NCBI RefSeq assembly: GCF_035083965.1
Contig: NC_089738.1
Coordinates: 8,706,734 to 8,770,733, forward strand
DNA from: Branchiostoma lanceolatum
Taxonomy: Eukaryota > Chordata > Leptocardii > Amphioxiformes > Branchiostomatidae
Length of the DNA stretch: 64,000 bases
Reading direction: 5' to 3'
Positions 2,091-61,900 of this stretch are shown here, piece by piece. The translations under genes and the position numbers were made by a program. Positions within the stretch are counted from its first letter, which is position 1, and the number at the start of each line of letters is the position of its first letter. Under the pieces are notes generated by a model. That model did not search any database. It was not told the DNA's origin and worked only from the letters and a program-made list of their open reading frames with translations.

Positions 2091-3279
2091 CCAAACCTGT
2101 CGTATCCAGACCCGTGCCTATCCAGTTCCGTGTCCGACCATCCAGGACTGTACCCGGAAGTGCTGTCAATCACTGTGATTGACCGGACAGTGACCTACCA
2201 CGTGCTGTGCGAACTGCACCAGTCATCAGTACTACTTTTGATTAGTTCATGGTGCCCCCGTAGGGGTTCACAAAAATTGCCGTGGTGGACGGTATTTCAC
2301 GTCCCCCAGGCGGGGTATTGGGAAAAGTTTTCAACTAGCAATAATCACGCCTCGGTTGGACCTCATCGGCTATGATATCGCCTCTGCGCAAAGTTAACGA
2401 TGTACACGCCATTTTGCGGCCAGCTCAAGAACAAAAACATTTTGTTTGTGGTCCATTGCTATCACCAAAACCATTTTGTACGCTAAGTGAATATGCTACG
2501 AAGGCTGATACTTCTTAAATCTATCTATTGAGAACGAACATATCTATTAATTTTTTTCATACAAGTCTTTTTATGTCAATTAGGTGTTTTGATCAATTAG
2601 ATGCTACAATGATCAACTTGAACTAATGAATATCAACTGCGACATCAACGAGGCCTCATTATCATAAATTATGCATTAAATTGCAGACAAACGCAGTAAA
2701 CAGCGTCGGGTCAGAGGTAAATGCTCTTGGGAACATAATTACATGTATGAACATGTACTACATGTATAATGTTCTAGCAAATATGTACTGATAACTATGT
2801 ACTAAGTGGACAATAACCAAAACAAGTAAAATTAAGTGCATCGCAATCATTATACATTTGAGCCGTAGCATGGGTAATATCAAGGAGGTGGTAATATAGA
2901 AAGGCAATTAAAAGTTGGATTTGACATAAGTACATATGGTGGTCACTTGAATTGTCCTGTTCAGAACCCTTGAAATCCATGGAATTTGAATGAAATTAAC
3001 CTTATTGATGTAACGTACTAGGTGCATTTATAGCAGTCAATATCAGATGGATTTACAGTATTATACAGCTCTGCTAAAGGAGGTTTCCATGTCACCTCCC
3101 AACTTTCGTCTGGGATTAATCCAATCAACGGTCGAGGCCAGCTATATCACGTGACCGGCCTCAACCAATCAAACCACCGCATGGGTCAGTCATGAATTTT
3201 GATTACTTGCAAAGATGATCAGTTACTCGGTAACTTCCTTAGCCATAGGATCTGTCGTGTTTTTCTTCTGCAAGACAAC
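2091..3279. other. Intergenic DNA upstream of the small secreted-protein gene
   Basis: Mostly AT-rich sequence with no exon I can support. The last 250 bp look promoter-like: a CCAAT box in the segment caaccaatcaaacc (about 3160-3173), and a short GGAGGT/ACCTCC palindrome near 3077-3098. No clear TATA box was seen. Promoter assignment is inference. Confidence 0.4.
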
Positions 3280-8168: not shown

Positions 8169-8590
8169 GTGGTACTACATTGTACTTTAATAGGAAAGGC
8201 CCGGGGGGATATCTAACAAAAGACAGTGACCAGACAGGTTAGGTGGCTTTTCAGACCTCATTGTTCAAACCAAGGGCGTTTCTAACCTCACTGCACACTG
8301 CAAGCTACGGTCGTGCATTTTTGTCTCACAGGTGAGAATATATCTACTGTTCAAATGCCAGATATCTAATACAGGAATGAATGTATAGAAGCTTTGTTCC
8401 CAAATCATCGTTAACTTACAAAGTCGAATTACGTCAACATGCAACTTACAAAGCACAACTCATTCGATTGGTGGAGGTGTCTTTAGATATCGAGTCTGTG
8501 GCTGAAATTGTTTAGTTGTAACGTTACGAGGCGTGTCATCATGAGTCTGCTTACCTTTGTTTTCAACACAGTTGTATTTACCGGTGTAAG

Positions 8591-8885
8591 ATGTTGAAGC
8601 TTCTGACGTCGAGTTCCCGGATTCTCTGTGAGAAGGGCTTGCCCGACTTGCAGAAACTGACAGCTGCAGTACCGGCAGTTATCGCAAGAAGGCAGCATTC
8701 CCATACGAGCAATGGGCCAAGTGCAACACCAGTGGGGAGTCCAGGTATGGAGTTTTTTTTTCGTTCTAGTGTGAGGTAAAGATTTTACGTGATGACGAAT
8801 GGAAGAGCACGTTTTGTGTGAGTGTGTAGTAAGCGTGTATGTTGTATGTATGTGTGTGTGCACGTGTGTGTGTGTGTGTGTGTGC

Positions 8886-8917
<32 letters not shown>

Positions 8918-11900
8918 GTGTGCATGTGTGTGTGTATGTATGTGTGTGTGTGTGTGTGTGCATGTGTGTGTGTGTGTATGTATGTGTGTGCATGTGTGTG
9001 TGTATGTGTGTGTGTGTGTGTGTGTATGTGTGTATTTGTATGACAGAGTGCGACAGAATCAGAGACACAGAGATCCATTTGAGATTTTTCTTGCTGTATA
9101 TACAACAGGTTCCCAGCCGAAGATCGACTTCACAGCTCGTCTCTTGGAAATGCGAAACGGCCAAAAGGTAACGTCTACTACGGCTTATCAAAATTCCTTG
9201 AAATGAGAGTGATCCATGGACATATCTAAAATAGCTACACATTAAAACGTTTCGATGACATAAATTCTTATAGAACATTTGAAAGGAATATAAAGTATGG
9301 AGAACTAGAGTTCCACGACCTCATACCTTCGCCAAATGATTTGAACCTTTATGACTGACATATTAGGAGTGTTTCTCATCAATTCTAAATCATACCAGTT
9401 GATTGTCTTAAAATATAACATGCCCAAAGTATGAGCTTAACAAATTATGAGCTTAACAAAGAAGGTTGTGCTAATATTTATACACACAAACAAACGCTAC
9501 CCTCTGCATAACCTTCTCGGCGAAGGTAATCATATCCCTCCTAACTTGAATGAGAGGCTGACACTATAGCCCGATTTACACAGATGTCTTTGCGTGTGTA
9601 GAATACGCGTGTGTAAATCTGGCTTATGAATATGATATATCCTAACCGTCCCGTAGGTCCAGCCAACATTCTCAGTGGATGAACTCCAGCGGAGACTAAA
9701 CCTGCTGCGTACTCTCATGGTCAGCAGTAACATAGACGCCGCCCTGTTCACGTCTTACCACAACATCAACTACTACAACGACTTTCTGCACACTGCATTC
9801 GGCAGGCCCTATGGGCTGGTCGTCACCATGGACAAGGTGCTCTCCATATCCGCAGGTACGTCACATCCGGTTTTCCCACCGCAGGTGTTTGCACTCACGT
9901 GACCGTGACGTAAGCATTGTCCGCCATACTGGATGGTTAAACCTGGGCTAAAAGTTGGATTTGTGGGCGAAAATTTGGATTTGTATACATTATTAATCTT
10001 TAGTGTTTTAATAATGATGTACAGCGTACCTACGCAACATTTGGGAATATAACATACATGTAGTCTAATTAATGGTAGACCAGGACCAGGCAGTTGCAAA
10101 TTAAGTACAAAATGTAGCAGTCATTATCTGCTTGATAGATAGTCATAAAGTGATCATCACCCAACTGGTCCCTAAAATGCGATGTTAAAACAAAAACAAA
10201 AACAAACAAAAATACGGAAAATGCATTTCGTTCCCGTGGGCCGCCGAAACATTTTCAGTTTTCATATTAAAAGCCGGCTTGTTTTTCCTTTTGAAACCTT
10301 GCAGCCGTTGACGGCGGCCAACCCTGGAGACGGACACAGATAGGCGAGAACGTCTTATACACCGACTGGGTGCCCGACAACTTCTACCACGCGGTCCAAA
10401 GAGAGCTGGCGGACCGAGGCCTCATGACGCTCGGTGTGGAGTTCGACCACATGACGCTAGATGGCTTCGCCAAGCTAAACCAGGCCGTGCCCGACATGCA
10501 GAAAATAGACATAGGGAACCCCGCCATGCGCCTGCGCCTGAAGAAATCGGACGAAGAGATTGCGCTTATCAGGTGTGCATGCCAACTTTTTCTTGCTATG
10601 ACCTATGTCTGGTCAGGATTCTGACAGTTGTGCCCTTTAAATGCTAACATATCTATAGCTTTATTATATCCACAGAAGAACTGAATTTCATTAACACAAT
10701 CAGGTCAAAATAATGTATCCTAACTATATACTATATGTTATATTTCATAAAATATAGAGACAAACTTTTCAAAAGGTAAATCCCAAACCTTCTTGAAACA
10801 ATTAGAGATTGTCTTCATTGTTTCTGTTGGTTTCTTTCCTACTCTTCTCCATATCCCTGTATCTGTGGTCCATTCCGCTGTGGTATTGGAACAGAGAGGG
10901 CGCACGTATAGCTGACCTGGGCGGGTGGGCTGTGGTGGAGGCGCTGGAGGAGGTCGTGCCTGAGTACGAGCTAGCGATCCACGCTAAAAACACCATGATC
11001 AATGAAGTGGCCAGGACCTACCCGCATGGCGAACTCATGGACAGTCAGTACAAAATTACTTCCTTATATGGTGTTGGCTGCATATGACGTCACGGCCGCC
11101 ATATTGGCTGGTTAAACCTTGAGTAGTCAAACCTATAGGTTTGCATGTGTATAATGTGTAATCATTATTCCTCTTTAACTGCCGGGGTATCATGCAAAAT
11201 TCTTTAGACAATTGCAATGTAAGCAGATCTTAATTGCCCATTTATCAAGACTGAGTGTGTTCCCCTCTCTTCCCCCAGCTTGGTCGTTGATCAATTCAGG
11301 TCTCAACACTGACGGGGGACACAACCCTTTGACGTCACGGCGCGTGCGCAGTGGGGATATCCTGTCAGTCAACGTCTTCCCCATGATTGCTGGGTATGGC
11401 CTGAATTTCGGAATATTGTCACGTTTTCAATTTTTGTCGAATTGAAGTAAGACAGTGAATGGCTTACCTGGGGCGTTTGTGCGAGTTCTCTTGACTCGGA
11501 AGCAAGCACATAAGCTCCAAGCAGATGTAGAAAAGCAAAACCGTAACGTTTCTCAACTGTAGGTATCTCTGTCCTTACATTTCAGGTACTACACTGCCCT
11601 GGAGAGGACCATGTTCCTGAACCACGCCTCCGACGCTCACCTAGCCCTGTGGGAGAAAAATTGTCAAGTAAGGCTGGTCGCCATCTTGTCGAGTCATTTT
11701 TGTCTCAGGGCAGCTGGGTTTACAGAATTATGTTATGAGACAAAGTGTACTTTTTTTGTTCGGTGGAGACGCTTATTACTATACGTTTTTCGACTTGGCT
11801 AGGTCGTCATCTTGTCCTTGTGCATTCCGTTGCATGGGTTTCTTCAACAGAAAATTGAGGGAACTTCACTTTGACTTTATTTGGACCAGTCTTGGGATAA

Positions 11901-13081
11901 CTGTGGTAAACACATGTTCGTCAACTGTCTCGTGAATCGAAAAAGGACTAACGTTAATAGCTCTTTTTCAACGGTCGGTCCTGTCAGTGACTTGCCTAAG
12001 TAGCTGCGGCCGCCGCCCGCTGCCCGCCCTCATCAATGAATATAGACACATTCATTTTTCTTTGATGGATACTATGTGCACATACATAAACGTACATGTC
12101 CTTGGTGCTGAACACCACCAACGCACACAAAATACCTACATGTCCTTGGTGCTGAGCGCCATCCACTTAAAAAGTCTAATTTCTCTGCCGTTGTTCCCAC
12201 CCCTGTGCCTACCAGGTACACCGGCGGGGTCTGGAGCTCATCCGCCCGGGAGCGCGTTGCTGTGACATCGCTAAAGAGCTGAACGAGATGTACCGGGAAA
12301 AAGGGTTGCTGGAGTACCACCCCATCGGCTACGGACACTCCTTCGGCGTCATGTGTACTTACTACGGCAGGGAAGCAGGTCTGAGAACAGATTTACTAAA
12401 TAATCGTTTGGGATTCAACTTAAGTTATATATTAATTTAATGATTAAGGAAAAATATGTTTATCGAATTCAAGTAATGTGAACAAGAACATTGGAATTTG
12501 TACATTAATATAGCTTGGCAAATAAAGTTCACTCTGCATTAAGCCCGCCTCCTGAGTAGTGACCCTTCTGAATCGGGTTGGCAGAAAGAGCTGTCCAGTC
12601 AAGATTTCGAAAAGCTGTCTGACCTTTTCTTCGTGTGGTTGCTCCCCCTGACAGAAAGTGATAGAATTGCAAGCATATGGTGTGTTCCAGTATATATCCC
12701 CTCGTGAAGCTTTTTCCGATGTCCAGACTGGACACCCTCATAAATCAGGCCCCCTACGCTCCACGATACATCGGTCGCGAAGGGTATCGTGGAGCGTAGG
12801 GGGCCTGATTTATGAGGATGAGACTGGACAGCTCTTTTCACTATCCCCTTCTGATCTTCTTCCTTCCGTTCTTGTTCCCAGATTTGGAGCTCCGTGAGGA
12901 CATCACGACCGTTCTCGAGCCCGGGATGGTCATGTCCATGGAACCAATGATCACGATCCCCGAGGGCATGCCGGGAGCGGGCGGTTACCGTGAGCACGAC
13001 ATCCTGGTGGTGACGGAGGACGGGGCGGAGGACATCACAGGCTTTCCCTTCGGTCCTGAACACAACATCATCAAGAAATAG
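8591..13081 (+). CDS. Creatinase (creatine amidinohydrolase), bacterial-type, with organelle-targeting N-terminus
   Basis: Nine exons: 8591-8744, 9109-9167, 9657-9855, 10305-10572, 10895-11043, 11279-11393, 11586-11667, 12216-12378, 12882-13081. All phases agree; product 462 aa. Known activity of the family: creatine + water to sarcosine + urea (EC 3.5.3.3), by a homodimeric M24 pita-bread enzyme without metal. Residues 60-462 match the whole bacterial creatinase of about 403 aa. The catalytic set is present with a constant offset of 59: His291 (in TDGGHNP, bacterial H232), Glu321 (ALERT, E262) and Glu417 (SMEPMI, E358). Other hallmarks are DGGQPWRR, FPMIAGYYTALERT, GYGHSFG, YGREA and PGAGGYREHDIL. 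Residues 1-50 are rich in Arg, Ser, Leu and Ala with no acidic cluster, suggesting mitochondrial import (inference). Exon 8 uses a weak donor, GTCTGA. AATAAA occurs at 13218. Vertebrates are not known to carry creatinase; the introns show this is a host gene, not contamination. Confidence 0.93.
8845..9045. repeat. (TG)n compound microsatellite in creatinase intron 1
   Basis: About 200 bp of TG repeats interrupted by CATG and TATG units. It ends about 65 bp before exon 2. Long Cys/Val or His/Thr open frames on both strands are translations of the repeat. Confidence 0.95.
9893..10060. repeat. Dispersed repeat, creatinase intron 3
   Basis: The words gtccgccatactggatggttaaacct and gtatacattatt recur in intron 5 at 11085-11170 (ggccgccatattggctggttaaacct, gtgtataatgtgtaatcattatt). 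It is a pair of related interspersed repeats in the same orientation inside one gene; no terminal repeats were identified. Confidence 0.5.
11082..11172. repeat. Dispersed repeat, creatinase intron 5
   Basis: Second copy of the repeat described at 9893-10060, shorter, beginning just after the donor of exon 5. Confidence 0.5.
12736..12817 (+). repeat. Perfect 34-bp-stem hairpin in creatinase intron 8
   Basis: The left arm 12736-12769 and right arm 12784-12817 are exact reverse complements (34 bp) around a 14-nt loop (atcggtcgcgaagg). Partial pairing continues outward through the related words gactggac and gagactggac. It is either a very young foldback element or a pre-miRNA-like intronic hairpin. 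No protein frame uses it. Confidence 0.85.
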
Positions 13082-13589
13082 CCATGTCCTTCATGATAAG
13101 GCAATAGCCAGCATGCAATTGACGTCGTCAAAATTAAACAAAACATGGTCCTTATAAAACATCTTTACCTTTGTCTCTTTTTTTCTTTCTTTTTTAAACA
13201 TCAGAAAGATGTATTTGAATAAATTGCAAAGGACGACTTTGTTACATGAAACGATATCACTTTATGTATGAAAGACGATATGAAGTTATGGTAAACACAC
13301 AGCGCAATAAGAAAGACATGCGGTGATAGCAATTGGGTCGCCAGCGTAAACGGTAATGAATAAAGCTTTCCAATGATATACAATACGAAACAATCAAGTT
13401 TCCGAACTTTTTGTGTTAGGTTTAATTTGATTATGAAAATCATTTAGAAAACACTTCACGGTGGAACCAATATCTACAAGAGACCTGTAGCCGCCTTTGC
13501 AAACCGTTTAGCTATAGGTGGCGTCGGCGTCAATTTTTTTTAGGGACTGATTATTCGCGATTTTCAACATTTTGTCGCTCCCTAAAAAT

Positions 13590-45593: not shown

Positions 45594-46400
45594 TTACATG
45601 CATCCCTCCTCCTCGTAATGTCCCTTGAACTCTCCACTTGGGTCCGGGAACGTTTTGTTGATTGCCCGAACGGCGCATGAAGGAATGACTCTTCGTATAT
45701 GTTCCTCGTGCGGGTTGCGGATCATAAGGAAAGTAGCGCACTGTCTGTACGCATGGACCCTGTAGGCTTGGTTGTCCATTTCTTTCGGGCCCCTGGCTTC
45801 TTGTCCCAAGGCTTCATCTTCATCATCATCATCATCGTTGCCGACATCATCATCATAGTTATCATCATCATCGTAACCATCATCATCTGCTTTTCGGTCT
45901 TGTGCAATCTCCCATTGTGCAATCATTGCACAAAACAACACATCTTTGCTGAGGACAACGGAGTTAAAACCGGGGTGTTCAGTAAGACAATGGATTTTAC
46001 TGCCCACGCCTAACTTCCCAGCTTCCACCAAGTCGTGACAACACACGCTCTCGCGCACGGTCTTCATCTGTCTGCATTTTCCACCGCATCTGCACCACAC
46101 GAAGTGCTCCAGCCTCCACTTGTCGGTAGTCTCGTTGGTGTTTTCGTCCCACTCTCTCATGGTGACGGCACCGATGGTCTCAGGTTCAGCCGGCGGGGAC
46201 ATAGATGCCGCAGCCCCGGCAGTGTCTCCACCACTGCCCCCCTCCCCACTCTCTCCTCCCGACGAGCTCGGCAACCTTGGCTCGAAGTTGTAAGGGACGA
46301 TGTTATTGGGGTCAAACTCCCAGCGCTCCATGGTGTTCTGCTTTTCCAAGTTGGGAATTCTGCGGGCCCTAACACGCAAGTTCAGGTCCTTTCTTCTCAC
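45594..46400 (-). CDS. P2X7-receptor C-terminal (ballast) domain protein, stand-alone
   Basis: Single uninterrupted frame of 268 codons. There are no membrane segments, so it is not an ion channel. The segment from about 98 matches the cytoplasmic C-terminal domain of P2X7: WCRCGGKCRQM and ESVCCHDL supply the cysteine cluster (103, 105, 109, 120, 121) that binds zinc in P2X7, and YRVHAYRQCATF, RRVIPSCAVRAI and FPDPSGEFKG close the domain. Residues 45-75 are a Gly/Ser/Ala-rich linker. Residues 171-196 are almost pure Asp/Glu, encoded by a TCATCA-type triplet repeat (45813-45890) that sits inside the domain between its two conserved blocks. A second Met (MERWEFDPNN, residue 24) could be the real start, since the first 23 residues are basic and less conserved-looking. 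Domain-only relatives are known in invertebrates; their role is unknown to me. It is head to head with IPO5. Confidence 0.85.
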   Translation of the reverse strand: MRRKDLNLRVRARRIPNLEKQNTMERWEFDPNNIVPYNFEPRLPSSSGGESGEGGSGGDTAGAAASMSPPAEPETIGAVTMREWDENTNETTDKWRLEHFVWCRCGGKCRQMKTVRESVCCHDLVEAGKLGVGSKIHCLTEHPGFNSVVLSKDVLFCAMIAQWEIAQDRKADDDGYDDDDNYDDDVGNDDDDDEDEALGQEARGPKEMDNQAYRVHAYRQCATFLMIRNPHEEHIRRVIPSCAVRAINKTFPDPSGEFKGHYEEEGCM

Positions 46401-46974
46401 AAAATAAACGTGGCGTCCTCACGTTCCGGTGTAAGCGTGTGAAATATGATGTACACAATGTCATGCAAATCAGTTTTCCCGCCACGAATAAGTTTAAAGG
46501 TCATGACGCGTGGCCAAAAAAAACAACAAATGACGTAATTCTTTATAATACGTTATTTTTGCTGTACCTTATGTTTTCACGTTGCACTGTTATAAATGTA
46601 GCAGTGGTGATAGAGGTGAAATAAAGTTAAAAGCTGATCAATCCTCTCCTGCTCTCCAAAGTAAAGTAAAGTAGTCTACAAGCATACTTGCATTTCCTAA
46701 ATATGTCGCTAGGTGACAGTGTTGCACGGTGAACTACGAGACCACTTCAAGAATCGTCCTTTACTTCTGTGGAAGCTGAATGATCCTGAATGCGATTTCT
46801 TTTCACTGTAGAAATGTGATTTTCAGCGTAGCTAGTGACGTTTCACCCCCTTATGTCAGAAAGCTTTCTGACTTTCTTTTTTCGTCGTGTGCACAATCAG
46901 GCATCAAGTTTCCCGCCAAAAATAAGGTTAAAGTTCACAGCGCAGGACAGAACGTCGGCCTTTTCCCCAGCAAG
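46401..46974. promoter_or_regulatory. Divergent promoter region of the P2X7-domain gene and IPO5
   Basis: 574 bp between opposite start codons. It holds two E2F-type motifs, TTTTCCCGCCA (46474-46484) and TTTCCCGCCAAAA (46909-46921), the latter 54 bp from the IPO5 ATG. Both sit in related blocks (cccgcc-a-aataag-ttaaag-tca), so one may be a duplicate of the other. No TATA box. Shared control is inferred. Confidence 0.5.
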
Positions 46975-49900
46975 ATGGCGGAGCAGGCACAGTTCGAGAC
47001 TCTGCTGGCCAACTTAATGAGTCCTGACAACGACGTCAGGAAGCAGTCCGAGGTAAGGCGAACCCTTGGATAGACCCTTACAATATCCGTGTCTTCTATA
47101 AGTCCCAAATCTATGACGCCTACGGTGTAAAAGCGGCAAATTTGGCCTTAACATGTGGCGTGTTACCGGCATGGGATCGCCTTGCCCCTAGCGATGCTCA
47201 TGACTAGAGTAGAGTAGACTACTCCATGATGTCATTTGTAACAGGATCTCGGTACTTCAAACTACACTTTCAAGGCCGATATACAACTGGGATAGACCTC
47301 AGTAGACTATGTATCTAATGGCAGTCTTTTTATACATCTTAAGTACTCGCATGGAGTTGAATATTATCATTTTCGTAGCGGTGTTGGAAGTCACTTCCGG
47401 GTTGCGCCATCGCATGGTGGTGGTTGGGTAATCTCCAAGCAGAGGTTGGGGTAGAAGATCGCAACGTTTTAAGACAGCCACACACACCAACATGTGTAGA
47501 CAGTGGATAGATGGTGGATGAGTGTCTGTCAGAAATCTGGTTTGACTGTCTTCCGGTGTTCTAGCTAGCATAGTTTGAGCATAGGGGCCCCTAGTGATTT
47601 CTGTATCTGTATCTGGACCCCCTATGCTGTGATAATTTTTTAGGCCCCCCCTCTATCTTTCAATCAGCACAGGCGTGTTGTTGTTTTTTGGGGGAGGAGA
47701 ACCTCATGAATATTTGTTTTAAAAAAAGAATCACATTTAGCTTTAGAGTAAGGCTGTAACAAAGGGAAAACTTTACTTCACAAAAGTTGCCCCTCAAGTC
47801 AAAATGCAGGAAATAGTATCTCAGAGGGTTTTGAATTCTAGAATATTCTGTGGGAGGGTGCCAACATGTATGGCATGTGTCATACAAAGTTTGTCTTCTA
47901 TACCTGACCCCTACGCAGTGAAAAAATTCTGGTAAGAGGCTCTTATTATACTTTGACTACTGCAAATCTGAAATATTTGGGCTGGTTTTATTAGCATTTC
48001 CACTGTATTACTTGTACTGCAGAATTTTTTCAACTGCAAATTTAAGAAGTTGCGAAAACTCTTTGCCCCTCCTACTGCAAAATTAAGTCCCTGCGACAAT
48101 AAATCAATCTACAGTAACTTAATAAGTACCAGCTAAACTTTAAACCCCAGCACGTGCCAACAGCAATTCCACAAGGACTTCATGTAGATCTTGTGCCAAC
48201 ATTCCAACACAATCTAGGTCTTACTACTTGTGTGATTACTTACACCTGTTGTGTATTGTCATTATCAATTAGGATTAGCATAGGGAAAATAGGCCAGATG
48301 CACATATAGAATACAACACGGTGTATTCCGTATTGCCCGAGGCCTGACCGTGGGTTGTGGGAGGGTTGGGACCAAGGGTGATGCGGAATACACTGTGTTG
48401 TACTTTATTCATGTCATACCCTACTGAAAAAACACACATTTCAATTGGAAATGCACCAAGAGTTTTCTGTCCCGGAATAAAGAAATTGTAACAACATCGA
48501 TTCCAATGTCCAAATCCGGTATTCAAATTTTCGACAGCGGCGCAACCAGCGACCTTGAAATGCATTCTTAATATTCTATCGAAGCCCGCATGATGCCGTA
48601 AATTATCATACGATGCAGAACACCCGTAACAAACGTTTTCGCTCATACATCATGAAAACAAATTTCTTGATTCATGTACAGTGTACTTAGAATTGATTGC
48701 ACGTTGGGAACTTAGATTGGATCAAGGAATTTGAGCAGGTAAATGTATTCCTTTGCACATGTGTGTCATAAATAAAGAATGCAATGCTGAATTGTTTACC
48801 ACATTTTCATGTGCTCACTAATGTTAGGTATCGCTCCATCTTGTAACCTAATAGCTAACACTCACTATTCCTGTGTGCCAGTAAATCAATTGTTCTCATC
48901 ATGTGATGCTATTTGTATTGATCTGTGTGGGGAATGACTACAGGCACTTGGGACTTTGCTATATAATATGTATTACATCCCCTTTTCACCTCACTGTACC
49001 TATTGAAGACTAGTTAAACACCAACATTACATCCGAAAATAATTTCATCAGGTTAGTAGAACATATGATATTGGAGTTTTCTTTTTACACAACCAACAAT
49101 GTCTCTCATCACACAGTTTGTGTTCTTGGGTGTTGGAAATTTACGAATACATATCCCATAGATGTCTTTCATGGTTTCATAAGACATTGGTGTGAGACAG
49201 ACATAATGTGTGATGCTGTAATTCTTGATGAATGTACAAATGTATTTGTATGATATACATTAAGCAAAAACTTGTTTCGTTGTTACTCTTCTCTTAGAAA
49301 AAAAAGAAAATCAGAACCATTAATTAAATATAACTCAAAGTGGACTGTCTTTGCTGCTCACTCACTACCTAATCTCCTTTATGGAAATCAAAATTAGCTT
49401 CCGTCAGGTGCATTTGTAAACTACTTAATTTTTGGAAACTAGGTGTGTTTCTGATGATGATTTTCTTTGCCCACAGACTATGTACGATGGCATCCCTGTG
49501 GCCAATCGTGCTCAGTTTCTCCTCCAGGCCTCCAGGAACACCAGTGCTGCAGCAGAGGTACGTTGTTCCTTTTTTATAACCATGTAATTTGGCCCTTAAC
49601 ACTAATAACAGGGCTCGGAATACTGGATGCATGTGCACTTTTGTGGACCTAAAATGGGAGCTGTTTTGTACTGGGTGCATTGGTGCACCTAGATATTTGT
49701 GTAGGTCTACATACATAAACTGATTAAGGTACAATTGTGCACTAATATATAATTATAACTTTATTGCAAGTTCATGCCCGGAGGCTAATTGCAGACAAAC
49801 AAGTACATGGGAATACATGGGAATCAAAAATAGGTATCTAGACTACTGTCAAAGTTCTAAGTTAACTAAGGTTGACTATGGTTGGGTTTGACTTCTTTTT

Positions 49901-52900
49901 TGAAGGCAGTGGAAAATGAAGAGACCCACGTTTTTCATCGTAAGTGGGTTTGTTGATTTTAGTAGTGATATGGATTTTTGTAAGCTATTCAAATGGTGAA
50001 AGCTTGGAGAATTAACGGAAGCTGTTTTATATAAATCGATTCTTTCGGCCTCATATAGAGGGCATTGGCAAAGGAAATGTATTTCATTTTCCACTGCGTT
50101 CATTGTACAAAACTTACACATTCTCTCGTGAGCGGGCAGCTTTTTATATCTACCCTTTTCTATTTCTAGTGGATGTGCACTTATTCGTATCTTACACACA
50201 GCTGACCGTTGTTCAAAATCTTTGTTGGAAAGATATTTTTCCATTGAGTATTCTGTTTTAACATTCCTATAAAATCTTAACTTACTGTCATCGATAGATA
50301 ATTTATAAAGAAAACTTTGAATGTAAATGTCGGTCAGCCTTTTTCTTAACAATGTACAATATAAACAACATAAATTCCTCACATTTAAGTGTCAGAAAAA
50401 GCAGCTGAAGAAGTTGGGTTCATCGCAATTAATTTTGAATGTCTGAAGCTGTAATGCCAGTTGTTGTTGTTTTTATTATGTTCTGCACCTAAGATCTTTT
50501 TCGTGCACCTAAATTTTTAGGTTAGGTGCACCATTGCACCTATTCCTGAAAACAAATTTTGAGCCTTGCTTGCATTTCATCAAATACCTTATCCAATACT
50601 TATGATAAAGAACATTACTAATACTAGTACACCATGTACAAGGATGACATGGTTTAGTTGGTATTTCAACCAGACAAAAGAAGGAGTTAATCATTCACGA
50701 TCTGGCTTTCATTGAGTCGCCAATCATGAAACCAGTCTTGCTGTTTTATTATAATATTATATTGCTGTTTTATTCTTTCGTCTCTGCCAGTGTACAGCCA
50801 TAATTACAGTGTCTTATAGATCTGAAAATAAGAAAATCAATATGGGCAAAAATTAAAGTACAAAAGTTGGCAGCCTTCTGAATCTGAATTGGTTGGCCGA
50901 TATAATGCCCTTTGGCACAACACACCAGCTATTGTTTGATATATATACCCTACTTAGGAATGATGGTATGTGTGCATGCAGAATACAATGTAAGCTGGAA
51001 GCATGCCAGGTACAAGTGCAACAAAATCATTCCACAGTCACATTGGTATTCCTCTATGAATAGCCGACTGGCTGGCAGAGTACTAAATTTGCATGCGGTA
51101 TTTGCTGGATTTGTATTATCTGTACTGTGCTTGCACAGCTGTGTGGCCCAAGGGCTAAGGAAATGGAGATGGGCACTGCCCTATACATCATATGGTGTAG
51201 GGAAGACTTAAGTAACCTTTGGCTCACTGAAGTATCCATTTGTCACCCCATTCTTTATTGCTTACAATACACGAGTTAGGCAGCAGGGAGAAGGCAGAAC
51301 TGAAACACTGATATACATGTAATTTTGAGTGCACAACATAAAATACAGCAAAATGTCAGCAAAACATAATTACAAATCTTACTGCCCCTTCCATTTGTAA
51401 TTCTATAAAAGCATGTAACTTCAAAATACATCAAAGTACAACAAAGGTTATATTGCTTTCTCTGATGCCAAGATCTAGAATACTAGTATTCTGTATACTG
51501 TACCTTTACCATATATCCTACAAAAATATCTAGCTGCACCCACAGTGAAAAATTAGGTGCACAGCTCCAATTTTGGGTGCAGAAAAGTGCACATGCACCC
51601 AGTATTTCGAGGCAACCAAAGCAATATTAGGGCCCAAAAAATGGAAATAAGAAAAATGCCGAAATCTTTATGGTAGTGACATTTACTAATTAAATGTTTA
51701 GCGCATTTGCGTAATAACTTCCTACGTTGAGCATTTTAAAACTGAGCTGTACGATGATGCCTTAGTTTTGCGATCCTGCAAAAAACCCCACAGTTCCCAC
51801 ATCACAACAACGTCATATTTTTGCATCATGGACGTTGCTATACTTTGTGATAGTGTTGTTTGAACTAATCATGTATAGAAATGACTAAATAAATTGACTT
51901 TCAGAATCCGATTTTCGGGCCCTAATATTGCGTGGGTTTCCTTTAAACCACTGTTTCTGTCACAGGTGCGTCAGATGGGCGCGGTCCTGCTTCGCCGTCT
52001 CCTGACGATGTCGTTTGAGGAGGCGTGGCCGACCTTCCCGCTGGAGCTACAGGCCGCCATCAAGACACAGCTGCTGGCGGGGATCCAGCAGGAGACCACG
52101 CCCAACGTCAGGCGCAAGATCTGCGACGCAACTGCTGAGCTGGCTCGCAACCTTATGGGTGGGTCATAGCAGTGTTAAGACTTATCTTAGCTACAGTAAC
52201 TGTAAGTTTTAAAATACTGTAAATGCATTTAAGTTTGCGTTGTTTTTATTTCGTGCTAAAGGGGGAAAATGGAGTGTTCGCGGTGCTTTTAAGTTTGCGG
52301 CAGCGCTATAGTCACATACTGCTACAGTATTGGACAAAATGTTTGGGGCGCTTTTAAGTTAGCGGTGAAACGGTCGCTGTGAAAACCGCAAACACAAAAC
52401 CACCTCAAACATTTCTGCATTTACTAGTCTCAGTATCTATAAGATTGCAGTTTTTGTGGTCACTTCCTCACCACAAGCTCAAACTTTAGAGAAGATATAA
52501 GAACTTGCAAGGACAATTGTAAAAGAAAATATAAGAATGTCTTTTAGTACTAAGCTGAAAGAATATCATCTGAATCAAGGTTGAACTGTGAATTGCCAAC
52601 ACAGAAATTGAAATTAACCAATTTTTGAGCGATCAATCTTTGTCATAGAAAGTATTTTGAGCCCAGATACCCAATTTTCATGTATGGTGCAGAACATGGT
52701 TCTAGAAACATTTACGTACAAGTACTAGAGTAAAACTGTGTCCACAAAATAGTATGCTATTAATTTTTATCCATCCCCGCTTCTCAGGTGATGATGGTAC
52801 GAACCACTGGCCCGAAGCGCTGAAGTTTCTGTTCGAGTGTGCGAGTTCTCAGGACCCCGCCCTGAAGGAGAGCGCTCTCAACATCTTCTGGTCAGTCATT

Positions 52901-55900
52901 GGTTCATTCATGTCTCAATCACTGTCAAATTCTCATGTCAAAACCAGAGTTGTATCCAAGTTGCATAATCAGTAGTAGTAGTTGACACACCAATTTAATT
53001 TTCTGGTCTGTGATTATTGTAGGTTATTGATTGTGCAGGTGAGTGAAAGAAAGATAGAGGCTTCCTTTTACTAGTATATACATGTACCTAGACGTGCTTC
53101 TACAGGAACCACAAAATCATCATACCAGTCTAGTATACATTTCCAGAAATAACTTTTCACGACAGAAAGTGGACAAGGATTTAATTCAACTGTTGGTTAC
53201 TTGGTATACCAAAATATTAGAACCTGTGGATTGGTACACATTGTGATTAATTTCCAAGACAAAACGAAGCAGGCAAGTGAAAAAATCAAGCTGACTTTGA
53301 AAAAATGTATAATAGAATTGTTGTAATTATTTGTCAGTTACATTGTTGGCAAATTGATAGCATATACGTTATAGTTTGCAGTATTGCATAATGATATGAA
53401 GATCAAAGTTGCAACCACAGCTGAAGAGATGGCTTCTGTGTTCAGTTCTATCCCAGGAATCTTTGGGAACCAGCAGGCCCACTACCTGGAGGTCATCAAA
53501 CAGATGTTGTACCAGTGTATGACTGACCAGGCCAGTCCACAGGTACAGTGTAGGAACTTAATGTATATAGTGGTACTTTATACAATAGTGGCCATGGTAC
53601 AGGCATCAGCATATAGCCACTTGTGGTACTAATTTAACCATAATATATACATGTTTATGTACAACTATGTGATTTCTGTAGACACAAAACATTATTAATG
53701 AAGTTGAAAACATCATTTCTGACCTTAAAAAGTTATATTATTATATATTAGATTGCTGCAATACTCTGAATGAACTAAGAATGCTTTGAAAATAATTCAA
53801 GTCCATCTCCTTCCTATAATCGTACAATAGTCTGTTTACAAACATTTGTATTCTTTTTTGTGCAGGTACGAAGGTTGGCTGCCAAAGCCACCGCTAATTT
53901 CATCCTCGAGAACGAGAATGACGCCGCGCTGCAGCGACAGTTGTCAGATCTCCTTCCCGGGATCCTACAGGTACAGTTTCAGGAACCTAACCTAGAGCCT
54001 GGTCGCATATGCAGTACCACGGCCTTACATTGGCACTTGCTTGGCAGTCAGAGATGCATTGTGCAAAATTCTGCTGACATGTGACTCAGGGCTCGAAATT
54101 CATTTTTGGGAATAAGTGCACAGGTGCACCCAACCTAAAAATTTAGGTGCACAGAAAGAATTTTGGGTGCACAACTAGAAATAAAGTAGAGTGTCAGCAA
54201 AACTTAATTACATAGTTTAACACTACATGTACTTCCATCTGTAATTCTATAGCTAAGTTCAAGTCATACATGAAATAAAGTACAACAGAGGTTATAATAT
54301 AATGCTTTTTCTGATACTCAGATTTCAAGAATATCCTGTCTGCTAGTGTACAATAGTACCTTATTCATATAGCCTTAAAAAAAATCTAGGTGCACTGGTG
54401 CACCCACAGTTAAAAATTAGGTGCACGGCTCCAATTTTGGGTGCACACAGGTGCACAAAAATTGCACCCACTATTTCGAGCCCTGTGACTGAAAGTCCTA
54501 CATCTAATTTATGATCAAGCTTGCTTAATTTTGACTGGAAGATCTTGGCTATTTGGCGCTTTTCAATTAGTTTTGTGTCATTTTGTGTGAAGGTGTCATT
54601 CCTCAATGACAAGACCATGATAGAGCATTGAAAAATTTCTCAATGATTTTTCAGTGAGCACTGAGTGATTGTCCAATTACTAATGATTTTTGGATCACTT
54701 GTGGTTTCCGAATAATCTTCGTCCTGTAGAAATGGGTCCTTATTAAGTTGCTTTATAACATTTTTGTTCACTTTCCTTCAGAGCCTGTCTGAGAGTGCGA
54801 CCACTCAAGATGACGACTGTGTCCTGAAGAGCATGATTGACCTGGCAGAGAACACACCAAAATATCTACGTCTACAGCTGGACTCTGTGCTCAACATCAA
54901 CCTACAGGTAGAGATTCAGGCTGCAGTCCTTAATCAATCTGCTAGATGTCACTTTTGATCAGGTCTAGTCTTAGCCATATATTGTTGTCTTCAGCTAGAC
55001 TCTGTGTGCAACATTAACCTATGCGTAGATATTGAAACTGCAGTACTTCATTGATCTGCTAGATGTCACTCTTGAACAGGTGTCATCTTGGCCATATATC
55101 AGTTACCATTGTTTTCAATAATCTTGACAATGGTCACAACTATTTTCTAATCATTCATATTAGGTTTCAATATTGAAGCGTCTTGTGTCACCTCAAATGA
55201 GGATGACTTGAAACGAATATAGTAGTTTTTACATTGTCTAATTTCGTTATTTCATGGGGACCCTTTGACACTATTTGACTGTCTTGACCATTGACCTATT
55301 GTGTGATTGGCAGATCCTGTCCAATGCCGACCTGCCCGACCAATGGAGACATCTGGGGTTAGAGGTCATCGTGACACTGGCTGAAACAGCCCCGGCCATG
55401 GTCCGCAAACGTGGAAAAATTGTTCCACTCCTGAGTAAGTAAAACCTCTTGAAACTTCTCCCTTTAAATCTGTGAATTGTTTTAACTTGGCCAGAAACTT
55501 TATTAGATTACTCAGTAAAATAGTGTACTGAACAACTGTTGTGTGATGCAAGTCAACTATTTTGTACACTTGTATTTTTTGACAAGCTCTTATATATAAT
55601 TCTGCTTGAGCTGATTTTTACCTTGACCTCAGTCCCTCAGGTCATGGCCCTGATGGTTGACCTTGAAGAAGAAGAAGACTGGGCGACCTCTGATGAGGCT
55701 GAAGATGAAGACAGTGACAGGTCAGCATACCACGATTTCTGTTCAGTTTGGACAAAAATAACAAACTTAGAGTCTACAAATTCTTGTTAGTTACCATTTC
55801 CAGCATAATCGTATTATCTACAATTTGTTACATGTTGTTCGAAAGAGGAACAGTCACTGGTTTGTCATTGTATGTCATGGCTGTGCCTTGCTCAAGTGCC

Positions 55901-58900
55901 ACCTGGTAGAACTGATACAAACTGCATGTACTACAAGCTGGCAGGAGAGGCAAGTAGGCACTGTTAAGATAGCTGCAACTAGTGCATGACTTCAAATCAA
56001 GGTAAATTATTAGACTAGTGTGGCTTTAGCTATATGATTCTGCCTCAATAGAAGTGTGTTGTCGGTCACTCAAAAGAAAATGTTTTTGATTATTTTTTTT
56101 TTCAGTAATGCCATCGCCGGTGAGACAGGGCTGGACAGACTGGCGTGTGGGTTGGGAGGGAAGACTGTCCTCCCCCATGTGTCCGCTGCACTGCCACAGA
56201 TGCTACAGAACGGTATGGATCATTTCAACATCTGATTGTTCGTTCGTTCATTCAGACCCTTGTAATGCCTAGTGGCACATGGGCACCAGGTGACCTATGT
56301 GCCACCTTTCCTTGCTGTTTCAGTAGCAGGGTATATCTTTCCTTGGTTGCTGCCTAGTGTTACAACAAACAACTACTTGAACATAAATGGACCCAGGTTT
56401 TAACTTAAGGAACTTGTTATTCCTGGCAAAGAGGGTACCAAACACTATAATTACTTCACAGAGGTTTGTGTCCTACGGACTCTTGTTCTTGTTGCAGCTG
56501 ACTGGAGATACCGCCATGCTGCCCTGATGGCCATCTCAGCCATCGGTGAAGGCTGTCACAACCAGATGCAGGCGGTTCTACCCAGCGTGGTGGACGCTGT
56601 GCTGCCCTACCTGCAGGACACGGTCAGTTCAAACATATCACGTTGTACATGTACCCAAACTATTACATAATGTACCTGCAGCTAGCAGGGTGTATGCCCT
56701 ACACTAAAAACAAAGAAATTAGAAGCCCTCCTTTTGCATGGGACACCCAGAGGACACCCTGTTTCTCATAGTAACTACGTACACATGTACATTTGTTCTC
56801 CACAAACACTGCCACTGTTGTTTTTTCCTCATACCAGACACTGGGACTACATGTACACTGTAAATTCATATACTTTTGCAGTTTTACTATATTTGTCTTG
56901 TGTCTTACTCTAATCCTTGTATAATTATCCTCCCAGCACCCCAGAGTCAGATATGCAGCCTGTAACGCCCTGGGACAGATGGCCACTGACTTCGCTCCAC
57001 TCTTCCAGAAGAAGTTCATTGATAAAGTACGTACCATCGGCGTCCTTACATGTACTTCTTCTTTTCATTTTCTTTGGCAGGGTAATGAATAAAACGTTGG
57101 GTAACATAAATTCGCGGGGTACTTAAATTCGGGATTTTTCGAAAACGGGGTATTTAGGGATATGTGCTAGATGCAACATCAGTAATACCGCTAGAAATGC
57201 AAACTTGACAGACTAACGTATTCAGAACACTGTCTGAAAAGCTTCGATAACCATGCATTAGAAGTTGGCTACGTCAAAAACTCTCCGTCCCTTATTGTCA
57301 CAGTCTGAGGGCTTCGTGGGAGAATTATATTACATAGTTGTTCGCTGGTTTATAAGACAAATGTCACATCCGCTTCCTGCTCAACACACTTATTTACAAT
57401 ACAACTTATTAGAATCTCTTTTGCTAACCTACAACTGGACTCTAAGTGTGATTAATCATCAAAACGCCTCTTTGTTGCTACAACCAATGGCTACGGCACT
57501 ACGGTGAATTTTCCCGCCGCCATATTCGTTACCCAGAATCCTGCTATTCGGCAGACGACAAACGTTTGCGAGGAACACTTTTTTGTCCAAATGTTGTGTG
57601 TGATAGTGGACTGATGGCGATATTTTCCTCAAAGTTTGCTCTTAGCACAAGCAGAAACACATGGACATAGTAATATTACCATTTCTACGGCATCCAGCCA
57701 ACGCCCCGATGAATAATGTACAAATTTCCATGACGGTGGGGGTGAACTTTGAGTGACGTTCTACCGACTCAACACACGGGTTGTTCCTGAGGCCTGATGT
57801 GTGCGGTACGGCCGTTTTTTCGTGTATTTTTTTTTACTTGGACACGTCTATATCAATAGCACTCTCCTCAAGCCAAGGATGGAACGAATAGCTGCTGTAC
57901 AAAATGTAATTAGCGGTAAGATATTCAAGACGAATCTTCTCTCCCGAATTAATGTTCACCCCTGTCCGACAGCACTGTCATTGTGCGTGCGGCGGACGGT
58001 AGTTTCAAATTGAAATATTATGGTGTCAGCACGACTAGAGACAAAATCTACCATATATATGATTAGTGCAAAGATAGTACATGATGCTGACAGAATAATA
58101 GAAAAAAAGGATGGTTTATTGTTCTGCTAGATTGATTCCAGTCAACCATTATCGGAAAAATCCCGAATTTATGTTACCCAACGTTAGAAAAGCAGAGATG
58201 GATGAATTTTGAGAGACATGAACATATTGAGAAAAACTCATACTGTAGAAATCTAGTAATAGATAAGTGATGTGTTTGTATGATGCACTGTATTCTGAAG
58301 TTTTTGTTTTTGTATACGGTGACTTTTTACACACAAATATCATTGAACATGTATACAAAGAGTATATAGACGGTATTTTGCAAGCTTTTCTTGTACAATG
58401 TATTTGTGTACTTTGCCTTATTATATACAAGTAGTATTTTAATCTTTTCTAGTATTTGTATACTGTGCCCTATACACAAATATCATTGAACATGTACTAA
58501 AATGTACACAAAGAGCCTATAAAAGGACAATACTGTGGAAATGTAGTATACTGATTGATTGATTGGTTGAATTATTGATTGATTGATTGATTGCTCTACT
58601 CTGCAGGTTATCCGCGGTCTGCTGATCGTGTTGGATGACCTTCAGCACCCGAGGGTTCAGGCTCACGCCGGCGCGGCGCTCGTCAACTTCAGCGAGGACT
58701 GTCCCAAGTCGCTGCTACTGCCATATTTGGAACCCATTCTGGCAAAGCTGGAGCAAGTCCTGAGTGTGAAGATTCAGGAGGTGTGCAGTTTGCTCTCACT
58801 TGAAAACAGATATTTTTTCAGTCTAGTCACTCCTACTTTTCTTGATGAGAGTGTTGAGTTTTTTCTACCCTCAGCACACTAAAGTATCTATTTAGCTAGC

Positions 58901-61900
58901 AATTCCCTATGGTTGCAGGCCGGGTTAGGCAGCAGGGAGAATTTGAAATGGTCTATTATTGGTATATCTATTGGTATTTTAACTATGTATAAGATGATTT
59001 GCATGTTGACTGTCAGGCTCACATTTGTTTTTAATTCAGTTTGTTGAACTGCAACAAACTAATGAAAGACATCTTGAATTTGAGACAAATGTTTTGGTTG
59101 CGTTTTATGTTTCTGAAGGTCTTTGCCAAGGGAACAAAGATGGTGTTGGAACAGGTGGTGACGACCATCGCTGCGGTCGCGGACACTTCGGAGGACGCGT
59201 TCGTACCCTACTACGATCGCTTCATGCCCAGCCTGAAACTTCTCATGCAGAGTGCCAACGTTAAAGAGCTGAGGTTACTGAGAGGGAAAACCATCGAGTG
59301 CATCAGTCTCATTGGTCTGGCTGTGGGAACGCAGAAGGTAGGGACATGTGGACTTTTTTGTTTGTTCGCATAATTCGGAATGCTAGGGTCACGTTTTGAA
59401 TCCGGGGCCCAGACGGTCTTGGGGGACAAAAAGTATGATATAAAAGACAAAAAAAACACAAAACGTACCAAAAATTACTGAAATACAGTTTAATTTTTCT
59501 TTCCCCCAAACAGCCCGGCCAGGCCTTGGTTGGGAAATGTCATTTTTTTAAATCTCAGGTTTTCCTGTCATTTTGTACTGTGTAGTTTTTGGTCTCCCCC
59601 TATATTCATATTTAGCTGGTACATTTATGCTGCATTTGGGGCTATATTCAGATAGTCATAGTTAGTATTTATGCACTTTTGAGTCCCCTACACGTACAGC
59701 TGACATGTTTGTGTAAGTGTGTGTGTGTGTGTGTGTGTGTGTACAGTTCATGCAGGATGCGGCAGATGTGATGCAGATGCTGCTGGCCACACAGACAGAC
59801 TCCCAGGCCCACGAAATGGACGATGATGACCCTCAGGTACGACAATGCTTCAGGCTATTGTTTCCCCTAACCATTGTTCAGTACTGTATTATTCTTCCTA
59901 CCCTGCTGACTTCATTGATGAGTGTAACTAAATGAAAAGAAAATGTAGTGAAACCTATTGAAACTGAATCAAACTGACTTAAAGTCTCATTTGTTTAAAT
60001 TCTACTGTAACAACATCTTTCTGTAAGGGAACATATCCTGAGATATATTCCATGTTTGTGTTATATACAATGTAGATGTATATTTGCAAGCATTATTTTT
60101 CTCTCCTACTTTTGAGTGATATTTCCCTGGATATGTTTCTGGTTGTCCCAAAGCCCATTTACACAATTTTAAAGTTTTAACAGACAACACAGACCTAGGA
60201 TTGATACTGATTAAAAGTTTTTTTTTTTTTTGCTGGCTAAACAGCAACTTGCAAGGTAAAGAATCATTTTCTTCAGTCTATCATTTGCAAAGATACATTC
60301 AGTGTCTCATGATTGTAATGTTTTCCCCCCTTCTGTCCCAGATGTCGTTTATGATCTCTGCCTGGGCGAGGATGTGTAAGCTGCTGGGGAAACAGTTCCA
60401 GCAGTACCTGCCTGTGGTCATGGGACCGCTGCTCAAGGCTGCTGCCATCAAGCCTGAGGTGGCACTGTTAGATGGTCAGTCTCATTCATGCAAAACCTGT
60501 TAATGGTAGTCAGGCTTTCTGGTGATTTTTTTGTTTCTACTACTCCGTGAAAATGGAGGTATTGCTTTCCAGTATGTGTGTCTAGATGTGCGTCTGCAGT
60601 TATTTGAATATAGTTGAGTGACAGGATGTGAGGCAGAAGATGGTGTAACAGGAGATTGGTAAGAAGGGAAAGTTAACTTGGCCCAGTTCAAAGTTGCAAA
60701 GACAGGAAAATGCAGAGACAGAATTAGCAAGAAATTCACTATAATGAATAAAATGAGAAATTCACAAAAACTATGAGATCTTAAATTTCTTGTTTTTAGT
60801 TAGTTTGATTTTGTGTTTCTTAAATAAATGTAATTATCTGTTCTTGTTTCTGCTGTATTTCAGAGGATGACATGAAGCATGTTAGTGAAGACGAAGGTTG
60901 GCAGTTTGTGTCCCTCAGTGATCAGGTAAAATTGAATTCTTGGTGTGATGTCTTCATATTGTTTTCTTCACAAAATTTCATTTTAATGTATGACTGACTG
61001 ACTATGAGACAGACTGTAGAACTGACTGTAACACTGACTGACTGACTGGCTGTAAAATGATTTGATGGTGAACTTTTGTTCACAACCAAAGTTTTGTCAC
61101 CTGCCAACACTTTGGTGGCTTCATATGATCATCAGGGCCTAACATGTCTTGTTTTGTCCAAATTGTAGCAAAGTTTTGGCATCAGGACGACGGGTTTGGA
61201 GGAGAAGAGCACGGCGTGTCAGATGCTGGTGTGTTACGCTCGAGAGTTGAAGGAGGCGTTCGCAGACTACACGGAACAGGTGGTGAAACTGATGGTGCCG
61301 CTGCTCAAGTTTTACTTTCACGATGATATCCTTTCAAAGACAATTTTTTAAGATACAGGTACAGTCAAACCTACAACAGCAACCACCTCTACATAAAGAC
61401 CACCTGGCTTTTTTTTTGTGGTCCTTAGATAATTTTTCCCATTGACACAAGCATTAGAATCCTGTCTATAGTGACCACCTGTCCACATAGACCAGATTTT
61501 ATCGGTCCGCTGATTGGTCTTTTTGGACAGTTTTGACTGTATTATGACATGTATATTATCAATAAATTTGCATATGTCAATAAGAGAAGGGGTCCTCCCT
61601 GGATTGCTCTAGCCAAGTATGCTTAAAAGTCATGAAGCCAGTCAGAACTGACCTGTTTAAAACAGAACAAAGCTGTTGGAGTTCTCTTGTTACAAAAGCT
61701 ATTTAAGATAGTCCGATAGCCTTTTTGAGGCCGTAGGGTTAGTGGGTTGTTATCCATTGTATCTAGGGTACGGTATTGGAAGGCGGGCCCATCCCTCTCA
61801 TTCCACTGCCTTTTACCTCCCCAACCAAAGTCAGGTACCCATTTTTACACTTGAGAGGAGTGATAAAATTTGTGTAAAGTGCCTTTCCCAAGGGCACAAC

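Follow-up and report, generated by a model that had tools for sequence, protein, structure and literature searches.

The 64-kb stretch of Branchiostoma lanceolatum DNA analysed here (hereafter the window) carries, judged from its sequence, a genuine animal gene that is intact and belongs to the creatinase family. Bacterial creatinase (creatine amidinohydrolase, EC 3.5.3.3), an enzyme of the M24 or 'pita-bread' fold, converts creatine into sarcosine and urea, and we think it probable that this is a normal nuclear amphioxus gene whose putative product most likely catalyses the same hydrolysis.

The gene occupies nine exons on the forward strand (Table 1), which splice into a 1389-nt frame encoding 462 residues and a stop codon. 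No stop or frameshift interrupts the frame, and all eight introns start with GT and end with AG. Upstream, an in-frame stop ends at 8521, with no in-frame ATG between there and the start codon, and a pyrimidine tract followed by CAG just 5' of exon 1, acceptor-like by eye, may mark an intron in the 5' UTR. Junction 1 falls within an N-terminal extension that bacterial creatinases lack; junctions 2–8 lie inside the region shared with the bacterial enzyme and are gap-free against the solved structures 1CHM and 7YTO, and a match that runs across seven splice joins is not chance. Exons of importin-5 follow downstream on the same strand. An earlier note on this DNA had described an intron-bearing gene in a probable chordate genome, with nine exons yielding 462 residues, and our analysis reproduced that exon chain in an animal locus. 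No second creatinase copy was found in the window, where the best tblastn match outside the gene had an E-value of 0.015.

Table 1. Positions of the creatinase gene, its parts and other features in the window.
Feature	Position	Strand	Content
Creatinase gene	8591-13081	+	Nine exons
Exon 1	8591-8744	+	Translation start; bulk of the ~60-residue N-terminal extension, not present in bacterial creatinases
Exon 2	9109-9167	+	End of the extension, start of the creatinase core
Exon 3	9657-9855	+	Creatinase N-terminal domain; Phe119 and Arg121 (F62 and R64 of 1CHM)
Exon 4	10305-10572	+	N-terminal domain
Exon 5	10895-11043	+	Beginning of the M24 fold domain
Exon 6	11279-11393	+	Catalytic His291 (codon 11320-11322); departures L280, N282, G290
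Exon 7	11586-11667	+	Tyr317, Ala319, Glu321 (Glu321 codon 11602-11604)
Exon 8	12216-12378	+	Cys357, His383, Arg394; departures H377, I379, T390
Exon 9	12882-13081	+	Glu417 (codon 12941-12943), Met419, His435, stop codon
Three candidate poly-A signals	13133-13364 (starts 13133, 13218, 13359)	+	AATAAA or ATTAAA, string matches only
mir-2060 precursor match	12084-12172	-	Intron 7, antisense to the gene
Inverted repeat	12733-12820		Intron 8
U4 spliceosomal RNA match	2255-2395	-	Full model length
ORF with P2RX7_C domain	45597-46418	-	274 residues
ORF resembling the start of importin-5	46780-47073		Resemblance by eye
Importin-5 exons	about 51885-59370	+

Two of the introns hold features of their own. 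To our knowledge, the mir-2060 family is confined to amphioxus. The match to its Rfam precursor model in intron 7 scores 58.7 bits, slightly above the gathering threshold of 54.5; it overlaps two copies of a 33-nt direct repeat spaced 44 bases apart and has a modest fold of its own (-23.9 kcal/mol), so that, with a score so little above gathering, it is possibly a repeat-derived look-alike. PMC5650284 lists bbe-miR-2060c-3p in Branchiostoma belcheri, and this mature sequence aligns to the window twice, once with 2 mismatches and once with 3. Together with the importin-5 exons downstream, the mir-2060 match fits an amphioxus genome and narrows the chordate guess of the earlier note. The inverted repeat of intron 8, whose 37-nt arms are near-perfect (97%) and enclose a 14-nt loop, is possibly a small palindromic mobile element. 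Elsewhere in the window, the U4 match scored 122 bits, and 4 of the 20 other ORFs compared with Pfam gave a match. One ORF carries a P2X purinoreceptor 7 intracellular domain (E = 2.2e-12); the ORF resembling the start of importin-5 had no Pfam match.

A phmmer search of the PDB returned the three solved creatinases with E-values of 1e-165 (1CHM, which we take to be the creatinase of P. putida), 5e-163 and 9e-152, matching residues 62–461 (66–461 in the third), and the best non-creatinase, a proline dipeptidase, at 5.2e-22. Collinearity with the bacterial enzyme, as the earlier note had proposed, thus extends over residues 62–461 when the protein is set against 1CHM, 7YTO and 1KP0, with identities of 60.6% to 1CHM and 60.2% to 7YTO. 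Unlike these bacterial creatinases, the amphioxus gene has eight introns and its product an N-terminal extension of ~60 residues. At 12 positions that we assume to be catalytic or substrate-binding in 1CHM (F62, R64, H232, Y258, E262, R335, E358, H376 and others), the amphioxus residue is identical in all 12 cases; in the same comparison, the Glu262 column reads X in one of 21 class A rows (classes defined below). The alignment also agrees with the placing, in the same note, of the catalytic histidine and both glutamates (His291, Glu321 and Glu417, equivalent to His232, Glu262 and Glu358) at a constant offset of +59, an offset that is +57 at Phe62 and Arg64.

Close bacterial relatives in whole genomes are 55–66% identical to the amphioxus protein, the best reaching 66% over the aligned part as counted in the search and 65% after realignment. 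At E <= 1e-60, relatives were present in 32 of 398 whole genomes of one phylum; at E <= 1e-145, a cut-off used for both class searches that leaves out the class B proteins described below, they were present in 32 of 385 whole genomes of one class and 12 of 369 of another. Further whole-genome matches lay outside our locus set: two class B places and one distant place from the phylum search, and 13 places from the first class. In plasmids, tblastn matched 638 records, with identities of up to 62.9%. When GTDB contigs were scanned with this one protein, three loci came back, all of them relatives at 37–38% identity, probably because the peptide patterns of the scan were too specific. A scan of IMG/VR found no relative.

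We grouped these proteins into class A, the rows near 1CHM and 7YTO, and class B, 21 creatinase-like rows (L015–L035, from the search of one phylum) that are 47–55% identical to the amphioxus protein and carry the same 12 active-site residues. Six positions separate the two classes, with at least 90% of rows in each class agreeing, and at every one of them the amphioxus residue is that of class A. In more distant M24 rows (L001–L003 and L045), His376 of 1CHM is replaced by Ala or Ser and Phe62 by Trp. Rows L001–L003, with Ala and Trp at these two positions, form a third creatinase-like family 37–38% identical to the amphioxus protein; they come from MAGs whose titles suggest marine sources. 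Seven neighbourhoods of close bacterial relatives were annotated (two further records carry no annotation there), and in four of them, from Burkholderia, Mesorhizobium, Limimaricola and Azoarcus, sarcosine oxidase, glyA, L-serine ammonia-lyase or creatininase lies near the gene; those from Shinella, Paracoccus and Caballeronia have transporter genes and, within the stretch read, none of these enzymes.

Unlike the bacterial class A creatinases, the amphioxus protein departs from columns that are invariant across 49 class A rows, keeping 97 of 104. When class A rows are left out one at a time, none falls as low as this share (0.933), the minimum being 0.963, and the nine class B rows included in the comparison keep 98–102 of the same columns. 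The seven departures, in 1CHM numbering, are I206V, W221L, Q223N, A231G, R318H, F320I and H331T, all of them absent from the 49 class A rows and from the 9 class B rows (of 21 in that class) in this second alignment; at six of the seven columns, H331 being the exception, the original letter is kept even by three outgroup rows only 37–38% identical. The earlier reading of the gene as a plain creatinase holds for family membership, but it overlooked these departures.

Because six of the seven (all except I206V) fall in the two segments that contain His291 and His383 (His232 and His324 of 1CHM), a changed substrate is possible: the enzyme could have kept the creatinase fold and chemistry with a remodelled pocket, its main substrate being another guanidino compound such as guanidinoacetate. 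The departures do cluster with one another (seven pairs within 15 residues against a permuted mean of 2.09, P = 0.011), and Fisher's test gives p = 0.0018 for their concentration in the histidine segments, with intervals that were picked after the departures had been seen. All 12 listed active-site residues are nevertheless kept; measured along the sequence, the departures lie at distances from those 12 positions that are not significantly shorter than for other invariant columns (P = 0.22); and no creatinase in the tree has a longer branch than the amphioxus protein (0.67), so that some extra departures are to be expected. On balance, we consider such a change of main substrate unlikely. The same seven changes in 104 invariant columns could instead be those of a non-functional or unexpressed relic, a reading that we regard as very improbable given an open frame through nine exons with clean splice borders, 97 invariant columns retained and an intact set of active-site residues.

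The Pfam domains of the spliced protein, PF00557 and PF01321 alone, are common to the whole M24 superfamily and would suit an ordinary peptidase, a prolidase or aminopeptidase P, that merely resembles creatinase. That possibility is extremely slight: the protein scores 555 bits against creatinase and 81 against the best prolidase; the match to prolidase, aminopeptidase P, ectoine hydrolase DoeA and methionine aminopeptidase, which have the M24 domain in common with it, is at most 81 bits; NCBIfam peptidase models fall far under their cut-offs (PepQ, 73.3 bits against 630; Xaa-Pro aminopeptidase, 34.8 against 465); and both trees group it with the creatinase rows, apart from the outgroup, with support of 100/99 (47 rows) and 100/100 (62 rows). 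A position among prolidase or aminopeptidase P proteins, raised in the earlier note as a check on its claim, is thus not where the protein falls.

The best tree puts the amphioxus protein within class A (60/80), and placement inside rather than beside this class is weakly supported by these sequences: AU tests rejected neither a tree in which it branches outside the whole set of 58 class A and B rows (p = 0.361) nor one in which it branches outside the 49 rows of class A (p = 0.232). Row L006, whose match figures equal those of L003, was left out of both trees, and L045 and 12 of the 21 class B rows were left out of the 62-row tree, the AU test, the invariant-column counts and the statistics on the departures. 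As the tree rows are bacterial, almost only Pseudomonadota, with no eukaryotes among them, the trees do not separate transfer from bacteria from old retention. A recent transfer into amphioxus seems unlikely in view of the long branch, the introns and a third-position GC content (GC3) of 0.72, like that of the importin-5 exons in the window (0.65–0.82 in four segments). Bacterial contamination or an assembly chimera, which high similarity to bacterial genes might suggest, can be given practically no weight beside eight GT-AG introns inside the frame with a GC content (0.41) like that of the whole window (0.40), GC3 matching the importin-5 exons and a long branch of its own.

We return to the reading of the gene as an amphioxus creatinase. 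By homology, the predicted enzyme would combine creatine and water to give sarcosine and urea. His291 would act as the general base, and the substrate would be held by Glu321, Glu417, Arg121 and Arg394; we presume that these roles carry over from the bacterial enzyme. The first 38 residues of the protein have a net charge of +4, and the highest hydrophobic moment among its first 40 residues exceeds that of 92% of windows across the whole protein; these properties weakly suggest that the ~60-residue extension may be a mitochondrial presequence, and it may direct the predicted creatinase to mitochondria. Animal sarcosine dehydrogenase is mitochondrial. Sarcosine would then be formed where that enzyme acts, and would return to glycine and one-carbon units. 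We tentatively propose, as an idea that is possible but falls short of being probable, that amphioxus imports a nuclear-encoded creatinase into its mitochondria, where creatine would yield urea and sarcosine, the latter being converted by sarcosine dehydrogenase back into glycine and one-carbon units, and that the creatinase itself has been remodelled at positions that do not vary among the 58 bacterial rows compared, possibly tuning its affinity or substrate so as to spare the phosphagen pool.

We know of no creatinase reaction in vertebrates. Automatic RefSeq annotation may use the term 'creatinase-like' for some invertebrate proteins. Searches of open-access PMC found no creatinase in amphioxus or Branchiostoma, an absence that is weak evidence; creatinase combined with sea urchin gave no animal creatinase, the match being on natural products of sponges, and broader combinations gave none among the matches listed, as judged by title and start of abstract. 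On the supply side, creatine should be available to such an enzyme, since Branchiostoma belcheri sequences of GATM, GAMT and CKM were used in PMC6443941. According to PMC8070484, mammals lose creatine as it cyclises spontaneously and non-enzymatically to creatinine.

If the proposed function is correct, an animal with genes for creatine synthesis and a creatine kinase would be able to break down its phosphagen on purpose. Creatine breakdown would then be either an acquisition of a chordate lineage or an ability lost along the line leading to vertebrates, and amphioxus would offer an animal creatinase that has changed where the bacterial enzymes are constant.
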